From contig JAGKSW010000019.1 in NCBI GenBank assembly GCA_018993265.1, positions 62,001-126,000 of the forward strand: 64,000 bases of DNA. Direction: 5' to 3'. Shown here piece after piece: positions 5,766 to 29,108 of the stretch. Both the position numbers and the translations under genes were made by a program. Source of the stretch: Nostoc sp. TH1S01. Lineage in GTDB: Bacteria; Cyanobacteriota; Cyanobacteriia; Cyanobacteriales; Nostocaceae. The number at the start of each line of letters is the position of its first letter. Position 1 is the first letter of the stretch. A model generated the notes under the pieces. That model saw only the letters and a program-made list of their open reading frames with translations. It did no database searches and had not been told where the DNA came from.

Positions 5766-6456
5766 AGTGCGTTTTTTTGGGCAATTAATTGCGTAATTTA
5801 GTTGTCAAAAATCTTTATGATAGCAATCACTGAAATTTCTCGTTTGCGATTGACTTCATATCAAAGTATAGTATTTGTACTTAGTCTTAAATATTACTTT
5901 TTATCTTTTAAGTATGCACTCTTGTACACTTACACTGAATTTTCATATAATTTGAGTTATTGCAACCCCATAAATTACATATTTTTTTATTTTATTTATT
6001 TTTTCTTTATTAAATCACAACATGGCAAGAATGTAAAAACTTGATCTTTGCTTGATCAGTTTTAACATTAACATACGGACTTGGTAATTTTTGTATACCG
6101 AACAACAAAATTTTGGTTTTACTAGTGATATTACTTAATGTCTTTTTAATTGAAAATTTACATTTATTAATTAACCGCAAGTTATAAGCTTATATATTGC
6201 AGATTGATATCTCAACGCATCTATCAATCTGTAGATTTAAGTAACTACTTTAGATAGAAGACAAGACAAATACACTGAAATGTGCGAATTAAAAGAATGC
6301 TGCGATCGCAAATATTGGTAGCTGAGACAAGGTAGCGGAAGATGTTGTAATAAAACTAGGGACTAGAAACTAGAGGCTAGAGACTAGTATTTTTTCTAAC
6401 CACTCCCAGTCAACCATTCCAAAATCCCAAATCTAAAATCCAAAATGGTATAAGCT
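5766..6456. other. AT-rich intergenic region, divergent promoters expected
   Basis: About 690 bases with no convincing gene. The 80-codon frame at 5802-6044 is Phe/Tyr/Ile-rich low-complexity translation of AT-rich DNA. A HIP1 site (GCGATCGC) is at 6302-6309 and a run of ACTAG-type repeat units at 6355-6387. Promoters for the divergent propeller gene and the mtn operon should lie here, but I cannot pick convincing -35/-10 boxes or a SAM riboswitch. Confidence 0.6.
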
Positions 6457-7017: not shown

Positions 7018-7065
7018 ATTGGCTGCAAATAAAGAAACATCAAATTAACTTTATAGGATAAAACT

Positions 7066-7698: not shown

Positions 7699-8324
7699 TT
7701 GACCCTCGTGCAGAATTGATAGCAACAGCCCGTCACTTTTACCAGCAAGGTTGGATGGTAGGCACAGCAGGAAATCTTTCGGTATTATTAGGCGATCGCA
7801 GTTTTTGGATTACCGCTAGTGGAGTGTCTAAAGGCGAACTCTCAAACAGTGATTTTGTCCGTGTTTATCCAGATGGCAGAATAGAGACAGCCTCACCGCA
7901 TTTAAAACCATCGGCGGAAACAGACATTCACCAATTAATTTATCACCTGTTTCCCGAAGCACAAGCCTGCTATCACATCCACTCCATCGAGTCCAACTTA
8001 GTGGCGCGTTTTGTAGTGGGAGATAGTTTACCTCTACCACCATTAGAAATGCTCAAAGGCTTGGGAGTGTGGGAAGAAAACCCTCGTTGTACAGTACCGA
8101 TTTTTCCCAATCACCTACAAGTTTCGCAGATTGTGGCGGAGATTTGCGATCGCTTTCAGATAAATCCACCCAAAATTCCCGCCTTACTTATCCGCAACCA
8201 CGGGATCACAGTCTGGGCTTCTTCTCCGCAAACCGCCCGCAACTACATTGAGTTGATAGACTACATCTTCCGCTACATGGTGGCCGCCAAAAAACTGGGA
8301 ATTGAGGGAGAGAATAACAATTGA
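7695..8324 (+). CDS. mtnB: methylthioribulose-1-phosphate dehydratase
   Basis: Zinc-dependent class II aldolase-fold enzyme that dehydrates 5-methylthioribulose 1-phosphate in methionine salvage. Seen: GTAGNLS near the N-terminus, ITASGVSKGEL, a His pair in CYHIHSIESNLVAR and a C-terminal His in LIRNHGITVWASS, as expected for the Zn site. I prefer the GTG at 7695 (IDPRAELIATARHFYQQGW), overlapping the mtnX stop as GTGA, over the in-frame GTG at 7686; both are possible. The 209-residue length is normal. Together with mtnX and mtnD it covers three consecutive steps of the pathway; the isomerase mtnA is not in this window. Confidence 0.93.
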   Translation: MIDPRAELIATARHFYQQGWMVGTAGNLSVLLGDRSFWITASGVSKGELSNSDFVRVYPDGRIETASPHLKPSAETDIHQLIYHLFPEAQACYHIHSIESNLVARFVVGDSLPLPPLEMLKGLGVWEENPRCTVPIFPNHLQVSQIVAEICDRFQINPPKIPALLIRNHGITVWASSPQTARNYIELIDYIFRYMVAAKKLGIEGENNN

Positions 8325-8458
8325 CAAATGATATCGTGTCCCGTGAAAGACTTATCATTAAGACCGCAGAGGAAGCAGAGGAAGCAGAGGAGCAGAGGAG
8401 AGGGTTTTGACGTGTCTGCACAGATGTCTGGAATCATAACTGATTACCCGGACATGAT

Positions 8459-8788
8459 ATGACTATTAACTATTATCAGAGGTATAAAATATCTAATCAA
8501 TCTCTACGTGTTGTTGCCCGTCTGATTGCTTTACCTGATAAAGTAGAAGAACTCAAAACTTTACTGCTAGAACTAATAGAACCTACCCGACAAGAAGCAG
8601 GCGTAGTTAGTTACGAACTTCTGCAAAACCAGTCCGACCCAACAGATTTCACATTTGTTGAAGAATGGACTTCTGCGGAAGCGTTAGACACTCATCTAAG
8701 TTCACCTCATCTCCAAGCAGCATTAGGCAAACTAGAAGGTTTAGTAGCTGTTGCACCCGATATTCGCCGCTACAATCTTTTGGCTTAA
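8459..8788 (+). CDS. antibiotic biosynthesis monooxygenase (ABM)-fold protein
   Basis: A 109-residue dimeric alpha/beta-barrel type protein of the ABM or putative quinol monooxygenase family. Visible family pattern: VVARLIALPDKVEELKTLLL, then PTRQEAGVVSYELLQN, FTFVEEWTSAEALDTHL, and a C-terminal ALGKLEGLVA segment. These proteins often act on quinones or reactive aldehydes, but the substrate here is unknown. It starts 134 bp after mtnB; the gap holds a purine-rich AGAGGAAGC repeat (about 8365-8400), so it may be transcribed separately. Its stop TAA (8786-8788) forms the edge of a 17-nt palindrome next to the TnpB remnant. Confidence 0.82.
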   Translation: MTINYYQRYKISNQSLRVVARLIALPDKVEELKTLLLELIEPTRQEAGVVSYELLQNQSDPTDFTFVEEWTSAEALDTHLSSPHLQAALGKLEGLVAVAPDIRRYNLLA

Positions 8789-8840
8789 GTCAACTTGACT
8801 TAGGTGAAGTACCACAGGTTACGCTACGCTGCACCTGTGG
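8786..8840. repeat. right-end hairpins of an IS200/IS605-type element
   Basis: Two foldbacks: a 17-nt palindrome TAAGTCAACTTGACTTA at 8786-8802 and an 8-bp stem CCACAGGT (8812-8819) with ACCTGTGG (8833-8840). The second overlaps the stop of the TnpB gene on the minus strand, where IS200/IS605-type elements carry their right-end hairpin and the 3' part of the omega RNA. On the minus strand a TCAA follows, as at some right cleavage sites. The link to omega RNA is inference from position. Confidence 0.55.
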
Positions 8841-9693
8841 CTTCCTGTCCTGAACCAGTATCCCGGCTCATCCCTAGTCTTGCAACTAGCTGATCAGGCG
8901 TAGATTTCCCTTCTTCCAAGGGTATTTTTGACTCAGACAATAGCATTAGGTTAAGGGCTGCGTTAATATCTCTGTCCCAAAAACTCTTGCATTCTGGACA
9001 CTCCCACTCACGAATAGCAAGTGTTAAGTCTTGCTTGATGTAACAGCAGTTGGAGCATCTCTTAGAGCTAGGGAAAAATCTATCTACATAGTGAACTTCA
9101 CAACCGTAGATATCCCCTTTGTACGCCAGCATCGTGAGGAAGTTGCCCCACGCTACATCGCTGATTTGTTTGGCTAATTTACGATCCTTGACCATACTCT
9201 TAATGTTCAAACTTTCCACTGATATTGCTTGGTTTTCGCAAGTTAGTTTCAAGCTGATTTTGTGTTGGGAATCTTGCCTTTGATTAGCCACTTTTTCGTG
9301 AATCCTGGCAACAGTGAGCCTAGACTTGCTCCGGTTGTTAGAACCTTTGTTTTTTCTACTTAATCTCCTCTGTCTTATTTTGAGTCTACGTAAAGACTTC
9401 TGAAAATATCTAGGGTTCTCAAACTTCTCACCTTTTGAAGTAATCGCAAACTCCTTAAGTCCAAGGTCAAGACCTATCTTGTCTCCATTCAAGGGAGCAG
9501 AGGGAATGTCTTGTTCAGTTACTATTGATGCGTAATATTTACCAGATGGTGTTTTAGATATAGTGACATTTTTGGGTATTCCCAGTATCTCCGGATGAAT
9601 TACCATCTTGATAGGTGTCATCTTGGGAAGTCTTAGAAATCCATCAGTATCTATCGAAAAGTGTTGCGGTACTATTACTTTATCTACGCACAT
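8824..9693 (-). pseudogene. tnpB: TnpB (IS200/IS605 OrfB) transposon nuclease, N-terminally truncated
   Basis: RNA-guided DNA nuclease family encoded by IS200/IS605 elements. The 289 residues cover the second half of the wedge region, the RuvC domain and the zinc finger. The RuvC triad is intact: Asp76 (IGLDLGLKEF), Glu160 (ISVESLNIKS), Asp242 (WDRDINAAL); zinc cysteines are CSNC (213-216) and CPEC (232-235). Full-length TnpB has about 400 residues; roughly the first 110, including the helix-turn-helix, are missing. The break is at about 9690, where the coding DNA meets the end of the VOC gene. The element's left end and any tnpA are absent. Probably a dead remnant, although the catalytic half is undamaged. 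Confidence 0.85.
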
Positions 9694-10165
9694 TCACACC
9701 CGCCGCTGAATTAGCTCTTTGTTCTAATCTTTGCGGGTTTGTTGCTTCCAGATACTTAGTAGCCATCTCTGGAGTCAGGAGTTCCAACATTAAACGGTTT
9801 TCAATCCAAAATTCCACCACATCGAAAGCACCATCACGACTACAAGGAAGCACTCGCCAACCTTCCCGTGCGCCAATTCGTTCGATTTCCTCGACGCTGA
9901 GGGGAACAGAAATAGCTGCATGAACTGATGTGTAATTTGCGGGATGCTCATTTATCTGAAATCCTGCTTGTCCTTGCCATGCATCTGGGATAAGCTCACT
10001 ACCCAAAGGATAAAATTCAATTCCTGTACCAAATTCATCTCCTACAAACATCATATATGCACCAGGATTAGGGGAAAACGGTACTACTCTGCCATGCATA
10101 ATTTCTGCCATGACGTTAGCTACATGTTGAGGATTCTTTACAGAAATGGAAATGTGATGGAGCAT
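9680..10165 (-). CDS. VOC (glyoxalase/dioxygenase)-fold protein
   Basis: A 161-residue protein with the vicinal oxygen chelate pattern: N-terminal MLHHISISVKNPQHVANVMAE with an early His, a middle GTGIEFYPLG with Glu, VHAAISVPLSVEEIERIG, and a C-terminal EFWIENRLMLELLTPE with Glu. Such proteins bind a divalent metal through His/Glu; the substrate is unknown. The start at 10165 directly gives the typical N-terminal strand. Its last codons (AGVNVRR) overlap by 14 bp the open frame of the truncated TnpB, so the 3' end of this gene may have been reshaped by the deletion that removed the TnpB N-terminus. Confidence 0.8.
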   Translation of the reverse strand: MLHHISISVKNPQHVANVMAEIMHGRVVPFSPNPGAYMMFVGDEFGTGIEFYPLGSELIPDAWQGQAGFQINEHPANYTSVHAAISVPLSVEEIERIGAREGWRVLPCSRDGAFDVVEFWIENRLMLELLTPEMATKYLEATNPQRLEQRANSAAGVNVRR

Positions 10166-10327
10166 AGTTACCTCTCAAAATATTACTAAATCACCAAATT
10201 TAGTAGAGCCTTATACTTTATCTATAGCGTGTATTAAAATATTGAAATCTATCTTGAGATGTCATTTAAAAGCAATAATTGCTTAGTAATTGTAGAGTTT
10301 GCTTGAATTATTGACCAAATTAATAAA

Positions 10328-10354
10328 GGTGCGTCTCGATATTACAAACGCACC
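10328..10354 (-). terminator. possible terminator downstream of glgA
   Basis: GGTGCGT (10328-10334) pairs with ACGCACC (10348-10354); on the minus strand the stem is followed by TTTATTAATTT. It lies about 70 bases beyond the glgA stop. The T-run is imperfect. Confidence 0.45.
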
Positions 10355-10421
10355 CTAAAAAATTTTGTGTTAATTAGATGAAAAAACCGTTGCTAAGAGA
10401 AACTTATTAAATGACGCTGAC

Positions 10422-11900
10422 TTACCAATGATGTCTAATCCACTCGTAAATCTTTAAATACTCTGCTCCCGGAATGTTCCATGAGTAGTCATATTTCATC
10501 CCCTGAATAGCTAGTTGTTGGAACTCATCAGGAGACTGATACCACAAATCGATTGCTCGGTTCATCGCCGATTCTAGAGCGTAATTATCGGTTTCATAAA
10601 ATACATAACCATTGCGTTTTTCTGGTGGCAGATTTTGGTCGTAATCTCTATCAAATACCGTATTTACTAACCCACCAACACCACGCACAATCGGCACTGT
10701 ACCGTATTTTAAACCAATCATTTGAGTTAACCCACAGGGTTCGTAATTGCTGGGAACAACAATCATATCTGCCCCAGCATAAATTAGGTGGGATAACTCT
10801 TCATTAAAGCCCAACTCTAAATGCACATCGGGGTGATTATTTAAAAATTCTTTTTCATGGCGAAAATGAGCATTAATTCCTGGTTCTGTAGCTGAACCTA
10901 GTAATACAAATTGTGCGCCTTTATTGAGTGCGTGATAAATAGCGTGATGTACTAAATGCACACCTTTTTGATTATCTAACCGACCGATGTAAGCAATGAT
11001 GGGTTTATCGGCTGCATCAAGCAAGAGCCTTTCGCGCAAAGCCTTTTTGTTATATATTTTTTGCTCAAAATCTTCGTAGGTATAGTTATTTGGGATATAA
11101 CGGTCAATTTCAGGATTCCAAAAATCGTAATCTATACCGTTAAGTACTCCAGAGAATTTATCTTGATGTAAATGCAGTGTATGACCTAAACCACAACCAA
11201 CTTCTGTATAACGCGCTTCTTCTGCGTGGTTGGGTGAAACTGTGGTAACTGCATTGGCGTAAACAATACCCCCTTTCATATAATTCAACGCAAAGGGGTT
11301 GAAGTTGTCGCGTAGCTTATCGTATTGGAAATAGTAAGCTGCTCGATTTAAACCTGTAGCTGCAAGCGTTTCTCCACCACCTATTCCCTGATGCTTGAAG
11401 TTATGGATGGTGTAGCAAACTCGCTGATATTCCATACCATTGTATTTGTAAATTTCAGCCAGCAAGACGGGAATTAAGCCCGTTTGCCAGTCATGACAAT
11501 GGATAATATCAGGGCGCTTGTTGCTTTGATTTAAAAATTCTAAAGCGGCTTTGCTAAAGAAGGCAAAGCGCATATTGTCATCATCGCAACCGTAATAGCA
11601 ACCACGATTAAAGAAATTATCTTGCGAGTGGGGTTGAATAAAGAAGCACAGCCTACCATGCACCCATCCGCAGTATACAGAACAGTGAATTGCTGCACCG
11701 TACCAGGGTACCCATAAGTCTTTGTAGGCATCATGCAGTCCCCAAATATGGTCGTAGCGCATACAATCATACATGGGCAGAATGATCTCAACGCAATTTC
11801 CCCTGCCTTCTAATTCCCTACTCAGTCCGTAAACAACATCCCCTAAACCGCCTGCTTTAATTACAGGAGCGCATTCCGAGGCAATCTGTACTATGTACAT
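10422..11900 (-). CDS. glgA: glycogen (ADP-glucose) synthase, GT5
   Basis: Transfers glucose from ADP-glucose to growing alpha-1,4-glucan. The 492 residues start with MYIVQIASECAPVIKAGGLG, containing the ADP-glucose-binding KxGGL motif (KAGGL), and contain GVLNGIDYDFWNP, IAYIGRLDNQKG and the C-terminal catalytic segment VPSNYEPCGLTQMIGLKYG. The N-terminal wording and the cysteine-rich stretch CSVYCGWVHGRLCFF resemble, from memory, the GlgA2-type paralogue of cyanobacteria rather than the one closest to E. coli GlgA. The RBS AGGACTAGGA lies just before the start. It is monocistronic here, next to a divergent DUF4365 gene. Confidence 0.93.
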   Translation of the reverse strand: MYIVQIASECAPVIKAGGLGDVVYGLSRELEGRGNCVEIILPMYDCMRYDHIWGLHDAYKDLWVPWYGAAIHCSVYCGWVHGRLCFFIQPHSQDNFFNRGCYYGCDDDNMRFAFFSKAALEFLNQSNKRPDIIHCHDWQTGLIPVLLAEIYKYNGMEYQRVCYTIHNFKHQGIGGGETLAATGLNRAAYYFQYDKLRDNFNPFALNYMKGGIVYANAVTTVSPNHAEEARYTEVGCGLGHTLHLHQDKFSGVLNGIDYDFWNPEIDRYIPNNYTYEDFEQKIYNKKALRERLLLDAADKPIIAYIGRLDNQKGVHLVHHAIYHALNKGAQFVLLGSATEPGINAHFRHEKEFLNNHPDVHLELGFNEELSHLIYAGADMIVVPSNYEPCGLTQMIGLKYGTVPIVRGVGGLVNTVFDRDYDQNLPPEKRNGYVFYETDNYALESAMNRAIDLWYQSPDEFQQLAIQGMKYDYSWNIPGAEYLKIYEWIRHHW

Positions 11901-12082
11901 TCCTAGTCCTCGCTATACAAAACTTTATATTAACTATACTGTTCAGTATATGCAATATGTACTCATTGACAAGTGACTAGGCCAATGTTAATCACGAAAG
12001 CTTAATACAAGTGGTAGAGATTTGGGATGCTTCATCTGCTGCAAGACTTATACTGAGGAGATTCGAGGGGTATTAAATTTAA

Positions 12083-12622
12083 ATGAAGCCGAATCTACAA
12101 GATTTTATTGCTGAACGCGCCGAATATCTTGCAGTTATGTACCTGACTCGTCGCAATGATTTAGTGATTGAACGGATAAAGTCGGCTGATTATGGCTTTG
12201 ATATTCTTGTAACGATACTAAGAGATAACCTGCCTACTGGAAGAGTTTTTGGTGTGGAAGTTAAAGCACAAGACACAGCTATCAGCAATTTACAAGATAT
12301 TTCACTCTCTATTGCTCGACAAACAACTGAATATCTTCATAACGTGCCATTTCCTCTATATATATTCCTGTTTACGATGGAGGATGACAAAGGATATTAC
12401 AAATGGCTAAACAATGTTATTGCTGACTCTAACCAAGTTTCTCCTGTTTTGCAAAAAGAACAATGGCATTCTCTAGATGAGAATGGAATTAGACAGATTG
12501 TTGACGATGTAAACGCTTGGTACGATGCCAAGAGTCATTTTGCTGTAAAAATACTCTGGCTTGATAATTATACGATCGCTCCAAATAAAAACCTGACAGG
12601 TGACGCTGCTAAAATACCATAG
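12083..12622 (+). CDS. DUF4365-type protein, possible PD-(D/E)XK nuclease fold
   Basis: A 179-residue protein. The N-terminal part carries the order expected for a restriction-endonuclease-like fold: an early Glu in FIAERAEYLAVMYL, Asp in DYGFDILVTI near residues 46-55, then FGVEVKAQ (E-x-K) near residues 74-81. That matches the DUF4365 family as I remember it. The gene ends 34 bp before the helicase start in the same direction, so the two may be co-transcribed and a nuclease-helicase partnership is conceivable. It could equally be an unrelated small gene ahead of a housekeeping helicase; no activity is shown by sequence alone. Confidence 0.65.
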   Translation: MKPNLQDFIAERAEYLAVMYLTRRNDLVIERIKSADYGFDILVTILRDNLPTGRVFGVEVKAQDTAISNLQDISLSIARQTTEYLHNVPFPLYIFLFTMEDDKGYYKWLNNVIADSNQVSPVLQKEQWHSLDENGIRQIVDDVNAWYDAKSHFAVKILWLDNYTIAPNKNLTGDAAKIP

Positions 12623-12656
12623 AACAAGCAGCGACTCACCAGCACACCTCACAGCC

Positions 12657-14981
12657 ATGACTACAACTATTGACTTTCTCAGTCACCTTAACCCCAGCCA
12701 ACGTCAAGCCGTAGAACACTATTGTGGCCCGTTGTTAGTTGTGGCTGGCGCTGGTTCTGGTAAAACACGCGCACTAACTTATCGCATCGCTAACTTGATT
12801 CTCAAACACCGTGTGCATCCTGAAAATATCTTGGCGGTGACTTTCACCAACAAAGCCGCAAGAGAAATGAAGGAACGCATTCAAAAGCTGTTTGCGGAAG
12901 AATTGGCGATGACGCAACATGGTACAAGATTTGAGTTATTACCAGAACACGAACAGACAAAGTTGCGATCGCAAGTTTACCGCACAACCATTAAAGATTT
13001 GTGGTGTGGCACTTTCCACAGTTTATTTTCACGGATTTTGCGCTTTGATATCGAAAAATATCAAGATGAAAAGGGACGTAAATGGAATCGAAATTTCTCG
13101 ATTTTTGACGAATCAGATGCCCAATCTTTAGTTAAAGAAATCGTCACCAAACAATTAAACCTCGACGATAAAAAGTTTGAACCTCGTTCTGTGCGCTACG
13201 CCATCAGCAATGCGAAAAATCAAGGCTTAACACCCCAAGACTTTGAAAAAGAACAACCAAATTATCGCGGACGAGTAATTGCTCAAGTTTACAGTTCCTA
13301 TCAAGATAAACTAGCAGAAAATAACGCCCTCGACTTTGATGATTTAATTCTTGTCCCGACAAAATTATTTCAACAAAACGAGCAAGTATTAGGTTATTGG
13401 CATCGCAAGTTCTGTCACATTTTGGTAGATGAATATCAAGATACCAACCGCACTCAATATGATTTGATTCGGTTGTTAGTAACTAATGGCGGAGAAAGAA
13501 AAAGTGAATGGAATTGGCAGAATCGCTCAGTATTTGTAGTGGGTGATGCTGACCAATCAATTTATAGTTTCCGCATGGCAGATTTTACCATTTTGCTGGA
13601 ATTTCAAAATGATTTCGGTGATGGTTTGCCAGATGAAGATACGCGCACAATGGTGAAGTTAGAAGAAAACTATCGCTCTTGTGAAAATATCTTACAAGCT
13701 GCGAATGAATTGATTGAAAATAACACGCAACGAATTGATAAAATCCTAAAACCAACGCGGGGAAGTGGCGAACAAATTTATTGTCATAAAGCTGATGATG
13801 AACTTGCAGAAGCAGATTTTGTAATTCGGCAAATTCGTACCTTAGAACATCAACATCCCGAATTAAATTGGGGTAGTTTTGCAATTTTGTATCGCACTAA
13901 CGCCCAATCTCGACCTTTTGAAGAATTGTTAGTGAGGAATCAAATTCCTTACACAGTTGTGGGCGGGATGAAATTTTATGACCGCAAAGAAATCAAAGAT
14001 GTGATAGCTTATCTCAGAGCGATCGCTAACCCTGCTGATACAGTTAGTTTATTGCGGGTGATTAATACTCCCCGGCGGGGAATTGGTAAAGCCACTATTG
14101 ATAATTTAATTAACGCCTCCCAGCAATTAGGGCTGAACTTATGGGAAATTCTCAGCGATGAAACCTCTGTAAATACATTAGCTGGGCGTTCTGCAAAAGC
14201 GGTGAATAATTTTGCCCAAATGATTAGCCGCTATCAAAAACAAGTCGCCACGGTTCCAGTTTCTGAAATTGTCATGGGTTTGTTAGAAGAATCTGGTTAT
14301 GTCCAAGATTTGCAAAGCCAAGGTACAGATGAAGCAGAAGACAGAATTCAAAACGTCCAGGAACTTTATAACGCTGTCTTGCAATTTCAAGAAGAAAACG
14401 AGGATGTTTCGTTAACAGCCTTTCTGCAAAGTACCGCTTTAAGTTCTGATTTGGATAATTTAAAAGAGGGACAAACAGCCGTTTCGTTGATGACTTTGCA
14501 CGCTTCTAAAGGTTTGGAATTTCCGGTGGTCTTCTTGGTGGGTTTAGAACAAGGATTATTCCCCAACTACCGTTCGATGAACGACCCCGCAGCCTTAGAA
14601 GAAGAACGCCGCTTGTGTTATGTAGGAATTACCCGCGCTCAAGAACGCTTACATTTATCCTTCGCCCGCGAACGCCGTTTATATGGTTCACGCGAACCTG
14701 CATTGCGATCGCAATTTCTGGACGAATTACCCCCAGAATTATTAACTAGTCACACTAAAGTCCACGCAGTCTATCCCAAAGCTGCTGCTACAAATCGTGG
14801 ACAGCAAGAAATATCTCAGAACTGGCAAGTGGGAGATAAAGTCCTACACAAAACCTTTGGAATTGGTGAAATAACTCACGTTTTCGGTTCAGGAAATAAA
14901 ATATCTGTGGCGATTAAATTTGCTAGTTTGGGGCAAAAAATTATTGATCCCAGAGTAGCACAGTTGCAAAAAGTAGATTAG
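12657..14981 (+). CDS. pcrA: ATP-dependent 3'-5' DNA helicase, UvrD/PcrA type
   Basis: Superfamily 1A helicase used in DNA repair and in clearing replication blocks. The 774 residues start at the ATG at 12657 (MTTTIDFLSHLNPSQRQAVE), preferred over in-frame codons upstream that overlap the DUF4365 gene. Motifs: Q-motif LNPSQRQAVE, Walker A GAGSGKTR, Ia AVTFTNKAAREMKERI, motif II DEYQDTN, motif III VFVVGDADQSIYSFR, motif IV LEENYRSCENIL, motif V SLMTLHASKGLEFPVVF, motif VI RRLCYVGITRAQERL. The C-terminal GDKVLHKTFGIGEI segment is the Tudor-like tail of PcrA/UvrD that contacts RNA polymerase. A housekeeping gene. Confidence 0.95.
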   Translation: MTTTIDFLSHLNPSQRQAVEHYCGPLLVVAGAGSGKTRALTYRIANLILKHRVHPENILAVTFTNKAAREMKERIQKLFAEELAMTQHGTRFELLPEHEQTKLRSQVYRTTIKDLWCGTFHSLFSRILRFDIEKYQDEKGRKWNRNFSIFDESDAQSLVKEIVTKQLNLDDKKFEPRSVRYAISNAKNQGLTPQDFEKEQPNYRGRVIAQVYSSYQDKLAENNALDFDDLILVPTKLFQQNEQVLGYWHRKFCHILVDEYQDTNRTQYDLIRLLVTNGGERKSEWNWQNRSVFVVGDADQSIYSFRMADFTILLEFQNDFGDGLPDEDTRTMVKLEENYRSCENILQAANELIENNTQRIDKILKPTRGSGEQIYCHKADDELAEADFVIRQIRTLEHQHPELNWGSFAILYRTNAQSRPFEELLVRNQIPYTVVGGMKFYDRKEIKDVIAYLRAIANPADTVSLLRVINTPRRGIGKATIDNLINASQQLGLNLWEILSDETSVNTLAGRSAKAVNNFAQMISRYQKQVATVPVSEIVMGLLEESGYVQDLQSQGTDEAEDRIQNVQELYNAVLQFQEENEDVSLTAFLQSTALSSDLDNLKEGQTAVSLMTLHASKGLEFPVVFLVGLEQGLFPNYRSMNDPAALEEERRLCYVGITRAQERLHLSFARERRLYGSREPALRSQFLDELPPELLTSHTKVHAVYPKAAATNRGQQEISQNWQVGDKVLHKTFGIGEITHVFGSGNKISVAIKFASLGQKIIDPRVAQLQKVD

Positions 14982-15153
14982 GTAAAAATCAAAAGTTTCA
15001 GATCCTCGACTTTTTCAAAAAATCGGGGATCTTTGAGTTCACGAATAATTAATGATGGTTATATAGGGTTCCTATTGGATTTCTGAAAAAAATACAGTAC
15101 AGTAAGTCTTGATAGGGAGCATCCCACTTTTTTGCTTGTCATTGCGAGCGCAA

Positions 15154-15231
15154 CGAAGTGGAGCGTGGCAATCCCATCAACTTGTTAAGATTGAAGACTG
15201 TGGGATTGCTACCCTTCGGGAAGCCACTTCG
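15154..15231. repeat. long inverted-repeat (MITE-like) element
   Basis: Lies in the 328-base gap after the helicase gene. Outer arms CGAAGTGG (15154-15161) and CCACTTCG (15224-15231) enclose inner arms GCAATCCCA (15168-15176) and TGGGATTGC (15201-15209), giving an interrupted foldback of about 78 nt. The wording (ATTGCGAGCG, CGAAGTGG, GCAATCCCA) looks like the dispersed palindromic repeats common in Nostocales genomes. No coding is seen in the rest of the gap. Confidence 0.6.
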
Positions 15232-15309
15232 TGTCTACGTCGTTCCTCCTCGCTGCGGACATTTATTCTCTAGTTGCTAAATAAAAACTGGGATGCACCC
15301 GTCTTGATA

Positions 15310-15669
15310 TTATCCAAACCAATGAGATGCAACCAAACTTGGATCAACTGCTTCTGGGATGTAGCGATGAATATCCTGGACTTGCTCACCTAGAACTTTT
15401 TCAATTCCTTGGCGAATAATTGATTCTATGTGCAATGTACGTTCTAAAGAACGACACAGAGATTCTGAGCAAATAAATTCTGGCTTGTCTGCCGCATCAA
15501 CTGTGATGTATTGATTGGGAATTCTGCTTAAAATATAAGCAATGAGAGTTTGTCTCATATCAGGATTTGCAAAAGCTTCTTGATAGGGATGATGAGGGTA
15601 AGTTTCTAAAATACTCTCAAGCTCTTGAACAACTACGGTTATTGTGAGATTAACTAGAGTTTTAGTCAT
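15310..15669 (-). CDS. small protein, possibly ComFB-like
   Basis: A 119-residue soluble protein. The central segment MRQTLIAYILSRIPNQYITVD resembles the core of late-competence ComFB-family proteins (a helix ending in ALNRLPPxY), and the flanking helices VVQELESILETYP and ESIIRQGIEKVLGEQV fit that all-helical fold. The usual zinc cysteines of ComFB are not evident; Cys appear only in EFICSESLCRSL. The assignment is by eye and tentative. It is preceded by AGAGAGGCG (SD-like) before the start at 15669. It stands alone, 319 bases from the next gene upstream. Confidence 0.5.
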   Translation of the reverse strand: MTKTLVNLTITVVVQELESILETYPHHPYQEAFANPDMRQTLIAYILSRIPNQYITVDAADKPEFICSESLCRSLERTLHIESIIRQGIEKVLGEQVQDIHRYIPEAVDPSLVASHWFG

Positions 15670-19139: not shown

Positions 19140-21011
19140 CCCAGACTCCGCACTTCAAATTGAAGTATAAATAGATTACAAACAGAAGAAAAGCGCAAAA
19201 ATAAGAATGATTAAATAATGAATATGTTTTCAAAAATCAATTAATAAAGCATAATAAATTTGACCATAAAATTGGTCATACAAGCACGCTTAAACTGAAG
19301 GAAGCATGAATGTTCCTTTATGTGTTGGTAAATTTTGATTTCCTATAAAAATTTTATCAAGTTAAGAAATAAAATAATATTTTTGACAAGATGATGGTAG
19401 AGACTTCAAAATAAAATGACGTTCTGAAGTTAAATTAATAATTTGACTAATGCCATCTAAATTTAAAAAATGAATACCTTGAAAGCATTGAAATATCCAT
19501 CTTAATGTCGGATTCATGGTTAACTTACCTAATTGATTCTTAACTCCAATTTTGATTCTCTTTAAACTATTCCTTAGTTGCCTTTGACCAAGATTATAAA
19601 CTAACAAGCACAAGGACATTAAAAATAACATGGTCTCGATTCGCTCCGGGTTTTCAACGAAGAAGCTATCAGCAAAAAACAAAGGATCTTTTAAAAACCT
19701 AAACCCTCTTTCACAAGACTGTTGGTTTTTATAAGCTCGAATAATTTCTGATGCTTCTAACTTCTCTTCACCAACTAAATTAGTCGCTAAAATAAATCTT
19801 CCAGCTTCTTTTCTTTTTATTTCTATTTCTTCTACTTTTTCAGTTATTTTTCCTGACATTCTATAAACAGTCTGATTATTTTTTGACTTGCTTTCAAAAA
19901 CTTTTACTTCTTTAATCTCATTAAATTTCAGCTTTTTGTTTATTCCTTTTAATTTATATCTGGCTTGCTCTGGGGTTTCAAACTCTTCTTTTTTTATTTC
20001 ATTGAGTAGTTTCTCAACCTTTTCTTTTTCTTTTTTTAGTTTTTCATCTAGCTTTTTTAAATCACTATCTTTTCTTTTTTGACTTTCTACTATCAGCCAA
20101 TTTTGTTGAATTCCACCATAATTTACTATTTCTGACTTCCATGTATATCCATCTAAGTTTAAGCCCCCTCTTCTCTCTCTTTCTTTTGCATCTATCTCTT
20201 CTATCTCTACGCTCTGAACTAATTCCTGCGCTCTCTTAATTGTCATCGGTACACGACTTATCCATTTTAGATGCTGAATTAATTGGAGATTTTCTTGGCT
20301 ATATAATGCACTATCACAAACCATAATACTGTCAAAAATTATTTGTTTTCTAAACTCTACTAAGATTTTGCCAAATACGGATTTATCAGCTTCATTCCCA
20401 TCTCCCGTTCTCATGAATAATGGTATATCTCCATCACCACTCTTTATTAAATCTAAAACACATTGCTTTAAATCTGGTCGATGGTCACGAGAATATCCTT
20501 TAGTTATAATTATCGGTCTTTCTCTGGTTATTCCCTCTTCTCTTTCTTTGATTTCTTCACTTTTATATTCTCCATGTAGATGAAATGATGTTGCGTCCAA
20601 ATGTGAATACTTTGGCTCTATTTTAAATTTTTTAATCACTGATAAAACAATTTCTATAAAGAGATTATTCAATCCATGTTTGTATAGTTTATCCATGACT
20701 CTACCAATCTTATCATCATTGATATAATTACTTTCTACATCTTTTTAATTGTTGCATTTTCGATTTGAGACATTTTTCTGAGATATTTTTGAGTTTTTTT
20801 GATTGTCTCACTTCAACTGAACCAATGTATATTTAGTTTTATAAAAAGCTGGAAATCAGTTTTTTCTCAACACTTTAGTCTCAGTGGCTTCGCCACACAG
20901 GTTTATTTCTAAATGTCAGATTACTGGCTATTGTTGTGTATTATTATTTACTTTAGTTTTCCGAATAACCATGTAGTTTTTTGTGCTTCATAATGAAGTG
21001 CGGAGTCTGGG
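19140..21011 (-). mobile_element. IS1634-like insertion sequence with intact ends
   Basis: An 1,872-bp element. The ends are perfect 18-bp inverted repeats CCCAGACTCCGCACTTCA (19140-19157) and its complement (20994-21011). Both sides carry the same 6-bp target duplication TTAGAA (19134-19139 and 21012-21017). The internal gene (19362-20696, minus strand) belongs to the IS1634 group (IS4 superfamily). The short, clean duplication shows a direct insertion into the IS630 remnant. About 300 bp between the transposase frame and the right end do not encode the N-terminal domain expected there, so the copy seems non-autonomous. Confidence 0.9.
19362..20696 (-). pseudogene. IS1634-family transposase, N-terminus missing
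   Basis: 444 residues of a DDE transposase: YSHLDATSFHLHGEY holds the first catalytic Asp, KGYSRDHRPDLKQCVL with MRTGDGNEADK follows, then MVCDSALYSQENL with a second Asp, and the C-terminal YKNQQSCERGFRFLKDP holds the conserved YxxR/E segment. Family members of about 550 residues have some 95-100 residues before MDKLYKHG. Here the frame continues upstream only as NYINDDKIGRV before an in-frame TAA, and the remaining DNA up to the inverted repeat does not encode the missing domain. Presumably inactive. The gene is AT-rich and Lys/Glu-rich compared with its neighbours. Confidence 0.85.
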
Positions 21012-21154: not shown

Positions 21155-22306
21155 TTATCTACCTTTAAGACGTAAAGAAACATAGATGATTTGTTGCAGA
21201 TAATCAGGGATACCGGGATAACAGCCTTCTGCAATTCCTTCTAACATATCTAAAGAACCAGGATAAACCATTATTGATAAGCCATATTTGACAAGACAGG
21301 CAAAAATAGCTAATTCTTCGAGTAAATAACCAGATGATAATTCTACATAACGCTCAAAATTTTCAATATTTTTGTCAAATTGACGCAGAACAAACTCCTG
21401 TGCTGAAGATTTAATTGAATTGGCAAACTTCTCATTTTTTTTCATAAAAATATGTAATTGCTCGTAATATTTGAAATACTCTTCAGATTCTTGTATATCT
21501 GAGCAAAAAATTACATCAAAATGGCATTTTTCAGTATACTTTACAAAAATATTAGTTGCATTATCTATATACTCTCTTCCTAGGATTATAGCTTTGCTAA
21601 ACGCATGACTCTCATTTAAATCTTGATTGATTTGTAGTGTAATGCGATGTATACTATCACCAATCAAAACAGTACATTTTTTAAAATGTTTACTAATCCA
21701 ATCTGTTATTCCTACTAATTTTGGTATTGAAAAATTCTCATTTTCTAAACTGACACCTAAAAAACAATCTTCATGAATGTCAAGTTCTTGCCTGGTAAGT
21801 TTTGGAATAATTGCTTCAATCTCTACCCTATACTTAGCTCTAGTCAGAAATGCTAATTTATTTTGGAAATTTAATAGCTTTTCAAAATCAATATACTTCA
21901 TTTTTACCAGATGAGCATAAGAATAAGCATAATATGCAACATTTTTATTTTCAGACAAATCGTGACTCCAAAAAACATCCATATCATAAAATCCACCGTA
22001 GGGAGGTAGCGTACCAAATTCACAATCAGGAAATAAATGTTCAAATTCTTTTTGATTAAGTAATTTAATTGAGTTTGCATCTAAAGCTTTCTGGAGAGAG
22101 TCAACATTAATTTTTACACTTGCAGATAAAAGAACTATAGCTATTTTTTGTTTATCAATTTCTACTACTATAGCCTCAATTAACTCTAGTCCCAGTGCTT
22201 GTTTATATCTGTTGAGTTCCTCCGCTGTGTAAGCAGGTGAATAAAAGATAGTTTGATATTTAAGCTGGTGACTGTTCAGGAATTCTTGGAGTTTTTGAAT
22301 AGACAT
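21155..22306 (-). CDS. YbaK-like aminoacyl-tRNA deacylase domain fused to a cyclodipeptide-synthase-like domain
   Basis: A 383-residue two-domain protein. Residues 1-145 match YbaK/ProX trans-editing domains: YSPAYTAEEL, VVEIDKQKIAIVLLSASVK, DCEFGTLPPYGG, and YSYAHLVKMKYIDFEKL. The family's catalytic Lys (KTxxV) is replaced by Glu44 in IEAIVV, so editing activity is doubtful. Residues 178-383 match tRNA-dependent cyclodipeptide synthases: CFLGVSLENENFS gives Ser186 (nucleophile, AlbC Ser37) and Asn189 (AlbC Asn40), SSGYLLEELAIF gives Tyr327 and Glu331 (AlbC Tyr178 and Glu182), and VYPG gives Tyr348-Pro349. The Ser-Tyr spacing of 141 equals that of AlbC. No oxidase, P450 or other tailoring gene is adjacent. 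It lies 113 bp after the nSTAND gene, on the same strand. Confidence 0.82.
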   Translation of the reverse strand: MSIQKLQEFLNSHQLKYQTIFYSPAYTAEELNRYKQALGLELIEAIVVEIDKQKIAIVLLSASVKINVDSLQKALDANSIKLLNQKEFEHLFPDCEFGTLPPYGGFYDMDVFWSHDLSENKNVAYYAYSYAHLVKMKYIDFEKLLNFQNKLAFLTRAKYRVEIEAIIPKLTRQELDIHEDCFLGVSLENENFSIPKLVGITDWISKHFKKCTVLIGDSIHRITLQINQDLNESHAFSKAIILGREYIDNATNIFVKYTEKCHFDVIFCSDIQESEEYFKYYEQLHIFMKKNEKFANSIKSSAQEFVLRQFDKNIENFERYVELSSGYLLEELAIFACLVKYGLSIMVYPGSLDMLEGIAEGCYPGIPDYLQQIIYVSLRLKGR

Positions 22307-22419: not shown

Positions 22420-25400
22420 TCATTCCTGAGAATGCTTGGTAAGATAGTCTTTGAGCCAATTACAACCCCTTGCCAAAAGTGACTCAAAACTGTCAATTGA
22501 CCATAACTGAACAGTACTATCAGCAAAAGCAGTGGCTAACTGCTGCCCATCGGGGCTAAAACTAACGCTATATACTGGTCTCTTAGAACGTTTGAATTCT
22601 TGTACGAGCTTGCCTTGCAAGTCCCAAAGGCGAGCCGTGCCATCCGATGAAGCAGTAGCTAACTGTTGACCATCAGGACTGAAACAGATGTCATAAATCC
22701 AGTCTTGATGACCTTTAAATTCTTGCAATAGGTTGCCCTGTAAATCCCATAAGCAGACATTACCGTCAGCAGAGCCAGTAGCAAGACGCTGCCTCTCTAT
22801 GTTCAGTTCAGGGCTAAAACTGACGTTCCAGACCCAGCCCTGATGAGCTTTGAATTCTCGTTTGAGATTGCCCTGTAAGTCCCACAAGCGAACCTTGCCG
22901 TCAGCAGAGCCAGTGGCTAGTTGCTGTCCATCTGGGCTGAAACCGGCGCTCCAGATGAAATGGGAAAGGTGAAATTTTTGCAGGAGTTGACCCTGTAAAT
23001 CCCACAGGTAAGCACTGGAATCATCAGATGAGGTAGTAACAAGGCACTGCCCATCGGGGCTAAAATTAGCACTCCAGACCCAGCCCTTATGTTTGAATTT
23101 TTGCAGGAGGTTGCCCTGCAAATCCCACAAGCAAGCAGTACCATCTTCTGAACCAGTAACCAGTTTCTGTGTATCGCGGCTGAAACTAACGCTTAAGACA
23201 GGGCCTGTGTGCCCTTGGAAGGGATTGCCAATAGGCTTACCTTGTAAGTCCCATAGGCGAACTGTACTATCAGCGGAACCAGTAGCAATGTACTGCCCAT
23301 TAGCACTAAAACTGACGCTCCAGACCCAGGACTCATGTCCTTTGAATTCAGCCAACGGTTTATCCCATAAATTCCACAGGCGAGCTATGCCATCAGCAGA
23401 AGCAGTGGCGAGGTGCTGACCATCAGAACTGAAACTGAGACTATAAATCCAGCCATCGTGTCCTTTAAATTTAGCCAACAGCTTGCCTTGTAAGTCCCAC
23501 AGGCGAGCTGTACCGTCGGATGAGGCTGTAGCCAAGTGTTGACCATCAGGACTGAAACTGAGACTATAAATCCAGCCATCGTGTCCTTTAAATTTAGCCA
23601 ACAGCTTGCCTTGTAAGTCCCACAGGCGAGCTGTACCGTCGGATGAGGCTGTAGCCAAGTGTTGACTATTGGGACTAAAGACGCTGTATACCCAGCCCTG
23701 ATGAGCTTTGAACTCTTGCACGAGGTTGTCCTGTAAGTCCAACAAGTGGACAATCCCATCATCAGAGCCAGTAGCAAAATACTTACCATCGGGGCTAAAA
23801 CTGATGCTCCTAAAGCGACTTTTGTCTTTTTTGTCTCTTTGGAAAGGTTCTCCAATCTGATTACCTTGTAAGTCCCACAGACGAGCAGTACTGTCATCAG
23901 AACCAGTAGCAAGATACTTACCATCGGGGCTAAAACTGACGCTCCACACCCAGTCCTTATGTTCAAATTTTTGCAGAAGGTTGCCTTGTAAATTCCACAA
24001 ACAGGCTGTATTGTCTTTTGAGCCAGTAGCAAGATACTTACCATCGGGGCTAAAACTGACGCTCCACACCCAGTCCTTATGTTCAAATTTTTGCAGAAGG
24101 TTGCCTTGTAAATTCCACAAACAGGCTGTACCGTCTTCTGAGCCAGTAGCGAAATACTTGCCATCGGGGCTAAAACTGATACTCCATATCGGTTGTGTAT
24201 GGCATTTAAATTGATTCTGCTGTCGGATATTGTCAAGAATTTTCTGCAATATGGCTTTTAATTGAGGAGCATGATAGTCCTTGGGAAGGACTCCGTGCTT
24301 ATAATTGTGCATTAGCTCCTGCCCAGCCCGCATTGCTTTTAGTAATGCTTCTAGCTCGGAAGACTCAAACTGTAGCCAAGCATCTTTTGCCATCTGTTCA
24401 ATTTCTTTGATTTTGCGTTGACGCTGTAATCGCTCCAAGATGGCCTCAGCCAAAACGTCTAAAAAAATTTCATAGCGGTGAGCAGCTAAAGGGCGCAGAA
24501 TTCGGAACTCTCCTTGACTAAGCTTAGTGAGCCATTGATGAACGATTTCAAAACTAAGTTTTTCGGTTAAGTTTGATTCTTCGTTGACGTAATGAAGTAA
24601 ATCTTCAGCCTTGAGAGCTAGTTTGTCTCCAGAAGGTGTAACTAAATAGTAAAAAAGGCGATAAGAAGTACTTTCTTCAATATTTAAATCGAGATCCGAC
24701 TCTTCCAATTTTTTATCGAGATGATCTCTCACAATTTGCTTTGCTCCTCCTAAGTCAGTATAGGTTTTTTTCTGTAGTTGACGCGAGGAGGGATCAGATG
24801 TCATTTCCTGGTTCCACAAACGAAGCATTATCATTTGGAGGTAAGGTGATTCAATTCTCTCTTCTGATAGCACTTCTGATTGAGCTTGTTTAGACTTGAT
24901 ATCATTTAAAACTGCTGTAACTAAATCTGGCTTTTCAATACTAACTAATTTGTCCTCAAAACATTGAATAACAGTACTTTCTCCCTCAAGGGGTCGGATG
25001 TTTACAGACTCTAGGGATAGATGTAAATAATATTTACAGCACCTAGCAATTTTTTCTTTGAAAATATTCAGTTGAGCCAGGCTATACTCATGAATACAAA
25101 TGAGGAAATTTACTTTTAAATCAGGATGATTAATTGCCCGGAATAACTCATCATTGAATGTTCTTGTTGCTGCTTCTTGGTAGTGATTTGAGAAATATTC
25201 TTCAAACTGGTCAAGAATGATAAAAAATTTGCCATTTCCATTATGCTCAATGAGCTTTACCCATTCTTTTAAAGTCTCGGTAAATGGTAGATCTAATTGA
25301 GGAACTTGAATATTACCGAGATGCTGAATATCGGCTGCTATCTGCATCAATAAATTAACTAATGGCTGTTCTTTCTGCCAGGAGTTAAAGACAGTAACTG

Positions 25401-26349
25401 CCAACTTGGGTTGACCAAATTTTTCGATGTTCTGTTTTGCTGCTTGTCTTATGTAATAAGCTATACCATCTTGTAATACGGAAGTCTTACCAGCATTGCT
25501 GTCACCATAAAGTACAGTCAAGCGTGAGGTACACAGGTTATTAAGAATAATTTGCTGTCGGTTATATTCATCAATTGCTTTCTCAATTGCATATTGTGCC
25601 GATTGCCAGTTAAGGTGTTTGATGGCTAAACGATTATCCAATAAATTACGAAAAATGCGACCTTTAAAATAGTCAAGTTTAGCTAGGGCATTTTCACGAA
25701 TGGAAATGAGGAAATGGACATTCAATTTAGAGTCATTGACAGCTTGGGAAAATTCACCAGCAAAGGTGTCCCTCAGTCCTTCGCTTAATAAATCGAAGTA
25801 GTCCTCGAACTGATCAAGAATAATAAATAGCCTACCTTTCTCATCTTCTTGACCAACGATTTCCATCCAAGCTTTTAAGATATCAGCTAAAGATGGCTTC
25901 CCAGACGGAGGTAAGGATTTATTTTTGAGAATACTTGCGATCGCTTGTTCAAGCTGCTCTTTGATCTCACTAGGCGGTTTAGTTGAGAACAAGTTTGTGA
26001 TTTCTAATTCTAACTCTTTTTCAATGCCAGTTATCGGATCTTCCCAAGAAAACCTATCTTTTATTTCGCCTTTTAATGGTGGAAAAACTATCACTGCCGA
26101 ACCTGGTTTACCAGTTTTCTCTAGATATTCCTGGGCAGACTGACGCAAATGATAAGCAACACCTGCTCGCAGGAGAGAAGTTTTACCTACCCCGCTATCG
26201 CCATACAAAACCGTCAATCGTGAGGCTCGCAAATTTTGAATGATAATTTGTTGCTCTTTTTCTCGCCCAAAAAAGAACAAACTATCAGTTTGTGAATACG
26301 GAATTAGTCCTTTGTAAGGAGCAGGAATCTCAATACCATCACAATACAT
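22420..26349 (-). CDS. tandem nSTAND-type NTPase with 14-blade WD40 array
   Basis: A 1,309-residue STAND-class protein, of the type used as a nucleotide switch with a sensor of repeats. The N-terminus PYKGLIPYSQTDSLFFFGRE is typical of nSTAND1. It has two P-loop modules in tandem: Walker A GDSGVGKT (50-57) with Walker B LFIILDQFEDYF (174-185), and Walker A GDSNAGKT (282-289) with Walker B FFIILDQFEEYF (375-386). A helical linker is followed from about residue 715 by 14 WD40 blades (SFSPDGxxLATGSxDGTARLWDLQG), enough for two seven-blade propellers. A GAGGAAG site precedes the ATG; the upstream SIR2 gene ends 14 bases before it. No effector domain is visible, so the neighbours may be the effectors. 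Confidence 0.9.
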   Translation of the reverse strand: MYCDGIEIPAPYKGLIPYSQTDSLFFFGREKEQQIIIQNLRASRLTVLYGDSGVGKTSLLRAGVAYHLRQSAQEYLEKTGKPGSAVIVFPPLKGEIKDRFSWEDPITGIEKELELEITNLFSTKPPSEIKEQLEQAIASILKNKSLPPSGKPSLADILKAWMEIVGQEDEKGRLFIILDQFEDYFDLLSEGLRDTFAGEFSQAVNDSKLNVHFLISIRENALAKLDYFKGRIFRNLLDNRLAIKHLNWQSAQYAIEKAIDEYNRQQIILNNLCTSRLTVLYGDSNAGKTSVLQDGIAYYIRQAAKQNIEKFGQPKLAVTVFNSWQKEQPLVNLLMQIAADIQHLGNIQVPQLDLPFTETLKEWVKLIEHNGNGKFFIILDQFEEYFSNHYQEAATRTFNDELFRAINHPDLKVNFLICIHEYSLAQLNIFKEKIARCCKYYLHLSLESVNIRPLEGESTVIQCFEDKLVSIEKPDLVTAVLNDIKSKQAQSEVLSEERIESPYLQMIMLRLWNQEMTSDPSSRQLQKKTYTDLGGAKQIVRDHLDKKLEESDLDLNIEESTSYRLFYYLVTPSGDKLALKAEDLLHYVNEESNLTEKLSFEIVHQWLTKLSQGEFRILRPLAAHRYEIFLDVLAEAILERLQRQRKIKEIEQMAKDAWLQFESSELEALLKAMRAGQELMHNYKHGVLPKDYHAPQLKAILQKILDNIRQQNQFKCHTQPIWSISFSPDGKYFATGSEDGTACLWNLQGNLLQKFEHKDWVWSVSFSPDGKYLATGSKDNTACLWNLQGNLLQKFEHKDWVWSVSFSPDGKYLATGSDDSTARLWDLQGNQIGEPFQRDKKDKSRFRSISFSPDGKYFATGSDDGIVHLLDLQDNLVQEFKAHQGWVYSVFSPNSQHLATASSDGTARLWDLQGKLLAKFKGHDGWIYSLSFSPDGQHLATASSDGTARLWDLQGKLLAKFKGHDGWIYSLSFSSDGQHLATASADGIARLWNLWDKPLAEFKGHESWVWSVSFSANGQYIATGSADSTVRLWDLQGKPIGNPFQGHTGPVLSVSFSRDTQKLVTGSEDGTACLWDLQGNLLQKFKHKGWVWSANFSPDGQCLVTTSSDDSSAYLWDLQGQLLQKFHLSHFIWSAGFSPDGQQLATGSADGKVRLWDLQGNLKREFKAHQGWVWNVSFSPELNIERQRLATGSADGNVCLWDLQGNLLQEFKGHQDWIYDICFSPDGQQLATASSDGTARLWDLQGKLVQEFKRSKRPVYSVSFSPDGQQLATAFADSTVQLWSIDSFESLLARGCNWLKDYLTKHSQE
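23428..23666. repeat. identical 116-bp tandem copies inside the WD40 region
   Basis: Bases 23428-23543 and 23551-23666 are identical over 116 bases, offset by 123 bases (one blade of 41 codons). Such identity at DNA level, silent positions included, points to recent duplication or gene conversion of a blade. Confidence 0.85.
23903..24130. repeat. identical 108-bp tandem copies inside the WD40 region
   Basis: Bases 23903-24010 and 24023-24130 are identical over 108 bases, offset by 120 bases (one blade of 40 codons). This is a second, independent recent blade duplication in the same gene. Confidence 0.85.
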
Positions 26350-28574: not shown

Positions 28575-29108
28575 TTAAAGATTCATGAATGATTTGCCCA
28601 AAAAATTGAGGAAATTGTGTCGAAATAAAAGCAGTAATGTCAGTAATAATATTTCTAGAATATAAGTGACAGATACACTCCGATTAAAGACTCCATCTTT
28701 CCAATAATTGACATGATAAGGCTTTGCAGAACGATGGAAAGAATGCTGCCAGCTACCATAAATATTAGGACTTTGAAAGTTAAAATTTTCATTGAAAATA
28801 TTTTCGATTACAGCTACTCGATGATAAAAACCTCTCTGAAAGTGTTTCCATTGGCTTTCGAGTGCCCAGAATAAAATAGGGATGGCAAAAATAAGTAAGT
28901 CCGCATTATTGGGTATAATTATTTCTTTTTTCATCATTAAGACAATTACAGCCCCTGTTGCTGTTAAACCTAACGCTTTAATTGCCCAAATTTGCTTGTT
29001 GTAGTCTTCAATTGTGGTTTCCAAAAAGAAATACTCCTGCTTGAGCAAATTTAGCTCAAATTCCCATAGTTTTTTGTCATTGTTTTCGTTGTTTATATCT
29101 CTTGTCAT
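28575..29108 (-). CDS. three-TM membrane protein, SLATT-like in layout
   Basis: 177 residues: an N-terminal amphipathic/coiled stretch (WEFELNLLKQEYFFLETTIE), TM1 ALGLTATGAVIVLMM, TM2 LLIFAIPILFWALESQW, a soluble segment rich in His and aromatics, and TM3 VTYILEILLLTLLLLF near the C-terminus. An early helix followed by a TM pair resembles SLATT-type effectors associated with nucleotide-signal conflict systems, but I cannot confirm the family. First gene of the operon, ending 18 bp before the MPE-SIR2 gene. In context it could be a membrane-acting effector or an anchor; this is inference. Confidence 0.6.
   Translation of the reverse strand: MTRDINNENNDKKLWEFELNLLKQEYFFLETTIEDYNKQIWAIKALGLTATGAVIVLMMKKEIIIPNNADLLIFAIPILFWALESQWKHFQRGFYHRVAVIENIFNENFNFQSPNIYGSWQHSFHRSAKPYHVNYWKDGVFNRSVSVTYILEILLLTLLLLFRHNFLNFLGKSFMNL

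Follow-up and report, generated by a model that had tools for sequence, protein, structure and literature searches.

Closest described systems

Cyclodipeptide synthases (CDPSs) are, to our knowledge, known only as makers of metabolites, and the outputs that we know for STAND conflict systems are confined to nucleases, NADases, proteases, pores, and the like. The subject here is a gene of the filamentous cyanobacterium Nostoc sp. TH1S01 that encodes a YbaK-like tRNA-editing domain fused to a CDPS and that stands last in an array resembling a STAND system. It lies in a stretch of 64,000 nucleotides (assembly GCA_018993265.1, contig JAGKSW010000019.1, positions 62,001 to 126,000), the whole of which is called the window below.

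The CDPS half is like the XYP-subfamily CDPSs (for example, PDB entry 9j61) in its profile matches, its Ser/Tyr/Glu/Tyr set, and its Tyr-Pro mark; the fusion differs from them in carrying an N-terminal YbaK-like domain and in its STAND/SIR2-like array. Published CDPS fusions, in excerpts of PMC5816076 and PMC5767969, involve a C-terminal methyltransferase, P450, or ABC transporter or, in Legionellaceae, an unknown C-terminal domain. The YbaK half is akin in profile and in its GXXXP loop to the YbaK/ProXp (INS-like) trans-editing deacylases (PF04073, 3op6), from which it is set apart by a Lys-to-Glu change, by fusion to a CDPS, and by a score far below the cut-off of the YbaK_EbsC equivalog (16.2 versus 153 bits).

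The array has a SIR2-like domain and a sensor partner in common with the SIR2 NADase defenses DSR2 and ThsA, from which it departs in having Tyr for the catalytic His in all eight loci compared. Avs5 is a further SIR2 NADase defense with a sensor partner. The STAND/NLR-like conflict systems of multicellular bacteria, as presented in excerpts of PMC7159879 and PMC8195603, likewise feature an nSTAND NTPase with WD40 repeats, SIR2-like and metallophosphoesterase partners, and a small hydrophobic protein; what differs here is that the predicted output is a CDPS. The terms “cyclodipeptide,” “CDPS,” and “YbaK” do not occur in the main text of these two large surveys of STAND conflict systems. Among the literature matches listed, with subscription journals mostly outside coverage, no description of a YbaK-CDPS fusion or of a STAND-linked CDPS was found.

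The YbaK-CDPS fusion

A preliminary description made from the sequence alone had correctly placed the open reading frame (ORF), which is read from the minus strand (Table 1). Profile and PDB sequence matches confirm it as a genuine YbaK-type tRNA_edit domain fused to a CDPS, as that description had held. Residues 24 to 144 match PF04073 tRNA_edit at 48.1 bits (Pfam cut-off, 25.5), residues 1 to 145 match 3op6_A with an E value of 1.2e-27, and the YbaK/ProX motifs YSPAYTAEEL and DCEFGTLPPYGG are both found in the translation. For the C-terminal half, PF16715 CDPS matches residues 179 to 359 at 42.1 bits (Pfam cut-off, 27), TIGR04539 tRNA_cyclodipep matches the protein at 94.4 bits (NCBIfam cut-off, 45), and residues 157 to 383 match 9j61_A, the CDPS of Streptomyces sapporonensis, with an E value of 6.7e-51; the stretches CTVLIGDSIHR, AIFACL, and MVYPGS are common to both proteins. 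It is on this homology to 9j61 that the assignment of a CDPS fold rests. The AlphaFold2 model, a poor one from only 4 sequences (predicted local distance difference test score [pLDDT], 46.4; predicted template modeling score [pTM], 0.37), is not used as evidence of fold; with it, the first 38 Foldseek matches are CDPSs, at TM-scores of only 0.17 to 0.22 by query and 0.27 to 0.35 by target.

The active-site residues predicted at the outset are in place: Ser186 (codon 21751-21749), Tyr327 (21328-21326), and Glu331 (21316-21314), with the expected Ser-Tyr spacing of 141. Together with Tyr348, they are conserved in all 12 aligned copies. The catalytic residues of AlbC are Ser37, Tyr178, Glu182, and Tyr202 (excerpts of PMC7731078); their equivalents here were placed through alignment to relatives and through spacing, AlbC itself being outside the alignment. 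Asn189 and Tyr348-Pro349 are also present and had been taken as a mixture of NYQ and XYP marks. That part of the description does not hold, since the 12 aligned relatives vary between N, S, and T at residue 189, which is therefore just the free X of a plain XYP enzyme.

What might the enzyme make? The S. sapporonensis enzyme we take, from the species name only, to be the bicyclomycin enzyme. The core of bicyclomycin is cyclo(L-Ile-L-Leu) (abstract of PMC5930311). An aliphatic cyclodipeptide is thus a guess at the product of the fusion, which cannot be predicted safely.

Is the YbaK half an editing enzyme? YbaK/ProXp editing domains share a catalytic Lys and the GXXXP loop (excerpts of PMC9425024). 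The Lys position is occupied by Glu44 (codon 22177-22175), as first described. In an alignment of 12 copies, this column holds Glu in all nine members of the fusion clade and Asn or Ser in three distant relatives (L080 to L082), so that Lys is absent from 12 of 12 rows. Nonfused relatives keep it in 4 of 4 cases in one alignment, the four being 3op6, two alphaproteobacterial proteins (two of the seven plasmid matches to the YbaK half), and the insertion of the host prolyl-tRNA synthetase (ProRS). The host genome has only two PF04073 places, namely, the fusion gene and a 605-amino-acid (aa) frame read as ProRS. The GXXXP loop, G98-T-L-P-P102, is kept in nine of nine clade copies and lost in L080 to L082. 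Active editing is judged unlikely, with the Lys gone from the clade copies and present in the nonfused controls, and the YbaK half probably binds without hydrolyzing. Because the Lys is gone, the role first suggested for this half, that of holding or selecting the aminoacyl-tRNA, appears more plausible than that of a deacylase. This suggests the reuse of a tRNA-editing domain of translation as a nonhydrolyzing holder.

Distribution and selection

Searches for the fusion covered 1,051 genomes in overlapping sets (60 relatives, 386 from the phylum, 388 from the order, and 217 from the family). In the phylum, order, and family searches, the initial round scored no more than 5 or 8 candidates in any one genome, and misses are possible; other phyla were covered by one contig scan tuned to close relatives, by which absence elsewhere is not shown. 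The search for the same fusion in other genomes, advised in the preliminary description, yielded eight further loci. There are thus nine firm fusion loci in eight genomes (G000, G059 [twice], G689, G692, G760, G807, G808, and G813), eight of them over both Pfam cut-offs and the ninth, the unscanned L084, 94.5% identical to L083. (Records L001 and L002 duplicate L083 and L084, and each pair is counted once.) Among the full-length matches are those of N. paludosum, N. parmelioides, and a Nostocales metagenome-assembled genome (G689).

Both halves are under purifying selection, with a ratio of nonsynonymous to synonymous substitution rates (dN/dS) of 0.25 to 0.41 between the window and five Nostocaceae orthologues. 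Because the fusion recurs at eight further loci (Pfam on seven of the eight) and both halves are under such selection, a sequencing chimera is ruled out as its origin. Phage or plasmid origin is likewise unsupported: there is no match in phages or viral contigs, and no plasmid record covers 80% of the query, the plasmid matches amounting to 8 records, mostly of one half. In a tree of 39 CDPS halves, the eight STAND-linked copies and L003 form one clade, with values of 95/61 when L013 is included and 98/86 when it is left out. Next to this clade lie five short CDPSs linked to TerB and the three remaining copies with an N-terminal extension.

Fossils of the fusion gene were also seen, remnants of roughly its first 40 codons that are about 120 to 130 nucleotides (nt) long and contain stops (L008, L018, L052, L053, L057, and L059). 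They occur in G004, G378, G758, G759, and G813 (twice), and their flanks are mutually similar, at 88 to 98% over 0.8 to 2.6 kb.

The gene array

The preliminary description rightly concluded that this is not a normal diketopiperazine cluster but missed the conserved SIR2-like/nSTAND-WD40 array to which the fusion gene belongs. In the window, the array reads, all on the minus strand, P177, metallophosphoesterase/SIR2-like, nSTAND1-WD40, and, 113 bp further on, YbaK-CDPS (Table 1). The fusion gene has SIR2-like and nSTAND/WD40 parts as its same-strand neighbors in eight of the nine fusion-clade loci, with gaps between fusion and sensor genes of 18 to 159 bp in seven loci and 436 bp in L013. At the ninth locus, L003, the contig ends 97 bp upstream of the gene, which has a stop at codon 7. 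The order metallophosphoesterase-SIR2, nSTAND-WD40, YbaK-CDPS is identical in six loci (the window and L083 to L087). In three of them (window, L086, and L087) P177 lies upstream of the SIR2 gene, and in the other three (L083 to L085) it follows the fusion gene. The two loci of G059 are arranged otherwise. In L012, a SIR2 gene that lacks the metallophosphoesterase part is followed by nSTAND-WD40, and the fusion gene comes 18 bp after that. In L013, whose fusion gene is 45% identical to that of the window, a single 1265-aa protein made up of SIR2-like, partial nSTAND, and WD40 parts is encoded in the same direction downstream of the fusion gene; the sensor linkage persists there despite the inverted order. 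The metallophosphoesterase-SIR2 partner is rare: of 208 family genomes, 18 have a match of any extent to it (E values up to 1e-20). Seven of the matches are near full length, and six of these are in fusion-bearing genomes.

Table 1. The fusion gene and its neighbors, in window coordinates
Feature	Position	Strand	Basis
YbaK-CDPS fusion gene, 383 aa	21155..22306	minus	ATG at 22306; ORF, profile, and PDB matches
YbaK/tRNA_edit-like half, residues 1-145	21872..22306	minus	PF04073, 48.1 bits; column control alignment
CDPS half, XYP type, residues 157-383	21158..21838	minus	PF16715, TIGR04539, and 9j61 matches
nSTAND1 NTPase-WD40 protein, 1309 aa, putative sensor and switch	22420..26349	minus	PF20703, 147 bits (cut-off, 27.1); 14 WD40 stretches; two P-loop motifs
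Metallophosphoesterase and SIR2-like protein, 736 aa	26364..28574	minus	PF00149, 54.3 bits; PF13289, 54.9 bits
P177, small protein with three hydrophobic stretches	28575..29108	minus	Co-occurs with the module in 6 loci

This same-strand array is a putative operon. The minus strand shows no terminator-like site between its genes, in a scan that overall did not outperform shuffled sequences (6 sites against 6.7 expected). No recognized tailoring or transport gene is found in its conserved part, and P177 has no Pfam, PADLOC, or NCBIfam match. The metallophosphoesterase-SIR2 start codon is TTG in the window, relatives beginning at an ATG 6 codons later.

How intact are the proteins of the array? 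One or two P-loop motifs are present in seven of the eight STAND proteins of fusion loci, and the metallophosphoesterase motifs are intact in six of six copies. The metallophosphoesterase part matches two PADLOC models, PDC-S60 (1.8e-41) and an “Effector” model (4.4e-34). The SIR2-like domain scores above the PF13289 (SIR2_2) cut-off. SIR2-type NADases need an Asn and a His, for example, N133 and H171 of DSR2 (excerpts of PMC11087589). In an alignment of the eight loci, the Asn is kept in seven. The position with Tyr in all eight (KLYG in the window) is presumably that of the catalytic His, which was placed in a KL[H/Y]G motif with no solved SIR2 in the alignment. It is Tyr or Phe in seven of eight further SIR2-like proteins, the motif not being found in the eighth (L113). 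With the His replaced throughout, NAD depletion is therefore not an obvious output. The SIR2-like protein of L012 has no useful match in the PDB. The parts with known active-site motifs come down to the CDPS and the NTPase in L012 and to the CDPS alone in L013.

Two features of the immediate surroundings may be added. Some of the WD40 blades encoded at 22423-26349 of the window are near identical in DNA (a 123-nt unit in 2.4 copies at 92% and a 120-nt unit in 2.7 copies at 90%), as if recently homogenized or expanding. Beside the module, at 19362-20696, is a 444-aa ORF that looks transposase-like by eye.

Related sensor pairs

Outside the fusion loci, matches to the metallophosphoesterase-SIR2 protein were taken from 10 of 13 places (G702, G780, and G806 were left out), and a related SIR2-like and nSTAND-WD40 pair was found in seven loci, L109 to L115. 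In L110 (positions 6866-15489), L111, and L112, the pair is followed by an ORF of 90 to 99 aa and then by a radical S-adenosylmethionine (SAM)-like gene. That of L110 is GrrM/OscB (TIGR04261, 545 bits versus a cut-off of 310), and the short ORF before it resembles GrrA below the cut-off (18.6 versus 31 bits); the downstream ORFs of L111 and L112 were assigned from similar sequence starts, with no profile scan. The position behind the STAND gene can thus be taken by a different cassette for a peptide product, in L110 a radical-SAM ribosomally synthesized and posttranslationally modified peptide system; this fits a modular output but is no proof of one. Upstream of the pair in L110 are an S8 protease gene and a Trypco2 gene.

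What the fusion may do

As the gene stands last in a conserved SIR2-like/nSTAND-WD40 array, a regulated output in conflict or stress becomes a likelier function for it than mere biosynthesis. We tentatively prefer, at roughly even chances, to see in YbaK-CDPS an enzyme dedicated to the output of an NLR-like STAND module, making a cyclodipeptide signal or toxin from aminoacyl-tRNAs. That the linkage is kept without the metallophosphoesterase (L012), under inverted order (L013), and with P177 changing sides counts for this reading. So do the domain matches, the retained CDPS residues beside the lost YbaK Lys, the rarity of the metallophosphoesterase-SIR2 partner and its concentration in fusion-bearing genomes, the P-loops and metallophosphoesterase motifs, the PADLOC matches of the metallophosphoesterase part, the cassette of L110, and the dN/dS values of both halves. 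How would such a module work? The domains, their residues, the conserved linkage, and the purifying selection are what the sequences show. Its activity, its trigger, the order of events, and any role in defense are what we infer, as follows. The WD40 propeller would sense an intruder or stress cue, upon which the nSTAND1 NTPase would switch state. The SIR2-like domain, without its NADase His, would more likely be an adaptor or nucleotide binder than an executioner NADase. After its release or recruitment, the CDPS half would turn two aminoacyl-tRNAs into a cyclic dipeptide by way of an acyl-enzyme at Ser186, with Tyr327/Glu331 and Tyr348, while the YbaK half, lacking the Lys and retaining the GXXXP loop, may hold or select the aminoacyl-tRNA end or gate the CDPS. 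Growth arrest of the affected cell could then come from the product, as signal or toxin, and/or from the drain on aminoacyl-tRNA.

Several observations weigh against an output enzyme of this kind. The STAND-linked copies are one clade in one cyanobacterial order, so part of the synteny may be due to shared descent. The distant relatives L080 to L082 have no STAND neighbor; moreover, the YbaK domain is below the cut-off in L080 (G437) and undetected by Pfam in L081 (G556) and L082 (G456), two copies that, having no tRNA_edit domain and an unrecognized N-terminal domain, were rejected as YbaK fusions. The seventh near-full-length metallophosphoesterase-SIR2 match, in G415 (L107), represents sensor genes without a fusion gene, where the WD40 gene looks shortened. 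The L013 STAND protein has no P-loop and its SIR2-like part lacks the Asn too; any known type of NTPase switching is therefore out of the question for that copy. Four of the seven related pairs (L109 and L113 to L115) have no recognized downstream cassette, and no PADLOC model matches the YbaK-CDPS fusion. Finally, dN/dS is higher in some close pairs, all with few changes (1.74 for the CDPS half of L083/L084 and, for the YbaK half, 0.60 for L083/L085 and 0.51 for L084/L085). L013 may also be recorded in its own right: with its single protein at 4973-8770, it appears to be a form of the module that has no NTPase, yet the CDPS active site encoded by the adjoining fusion gene is intact.

Might the fusion instead be an ordinary enzyme of secondary metabolism, co-inherited by chance with a STAND operon? 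The single clade of STAND-linked copies would suit this explanation, as would the S. sapporonensis CDPS being the nearest solved structure and the existence of cyanobacterial CDPS-only relatives, three of them beside a 511-aa gene (a P450 in the one copy scanned). We consider it unlikely, as the conserved array has no recognized tailoring or transport gene and the STAND linkage survives rearrangement. A toxic drain is another explanation that we hold to be unlikely. Here the activated enzyme would deplete one or two aminoacyl-tRNAs and so arrest translation, the cyclodipeptide being a mere by-product. A tRNA-type binding domain fused to a consumer of aminoacyl-tRNA is in keeping with this, and the effector lists in excerpts of PMC7159879 and PMC8195603 suggest that STAND systems commonly end in an executioner; against it, two CDPS pockets imply a defined product, and many CDPSs expressed in Escherichia coli gave product, with no arrest reported in excerpts of PMC5816076.

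Must the fusion catalyze anything? It would be a catalytically idle sensor if it only bound aminoacyl-tRNA and reported translation status to the STAND switch. Domains of dead enzymes that may still bind do recur here, the YbaK half being without its Lys and the SIR2-like part without its His, and cyanobacterial XYP CDPSs are among those inactive in E. coli (excerpts of PMC5816076). The conservation of Ser186, Tyr327, Glu331, and Tyr348 in every aligned copy, unlike the decayed Lys and His positions, nevertheless makes an idle sensor very improbable.

Within the preferred reading, that of a STAND output enzyme, a more specific version is that the cyclic dipeptide is an immune second messenger or alarm that an NLR-like sensor calls for, to be received possibly by P177 or by the SIR2-like domain that has lost its His. 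This version, which we regard as rather unlikely, would parallel the cyclic nucleotides of CBASS and the ADP-ribose signals of Thoeris, here with tRNA-derived chemistry. If a STAND module is indeed wired to a CDPS, the consequences would be 3-fold. (i) Bacterial immunity would gain an output based on aminoacyl-tRNA and small peptides. (ii) Some orphan CDPSs without tailoring genes would be explained. (iii) The suggestion made in 2010 that some animal CDPSs act in the immune response (abstract of PMC2922099) would become directly testable.

CDPS genes without a YbaK half

Cyanobacteria also carry CDPS genes without a YbaK half. From 40 listed nonfused matches, 28 were taken and one fragment was dropped; 25 of the resulting 27 have a TerB-domain gene within 3 kb (L014, L015, and L060 to L079). 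A literature search on CDPSs with TerB gave nothing relevant. In L014 (7658-9022), the two domains are joined in a 454-aa TerB-CDPS fusion. The 511-aa gene mentioned above lies near three short CDPS genes (L060, L061, and L063), and Pfam identifies a cytochrome P450 in the L061 copy, the single one scanned (E value, 1.1e-14); the P450-like gene and the short CDPS possibly form an ordinary tailoring pair.
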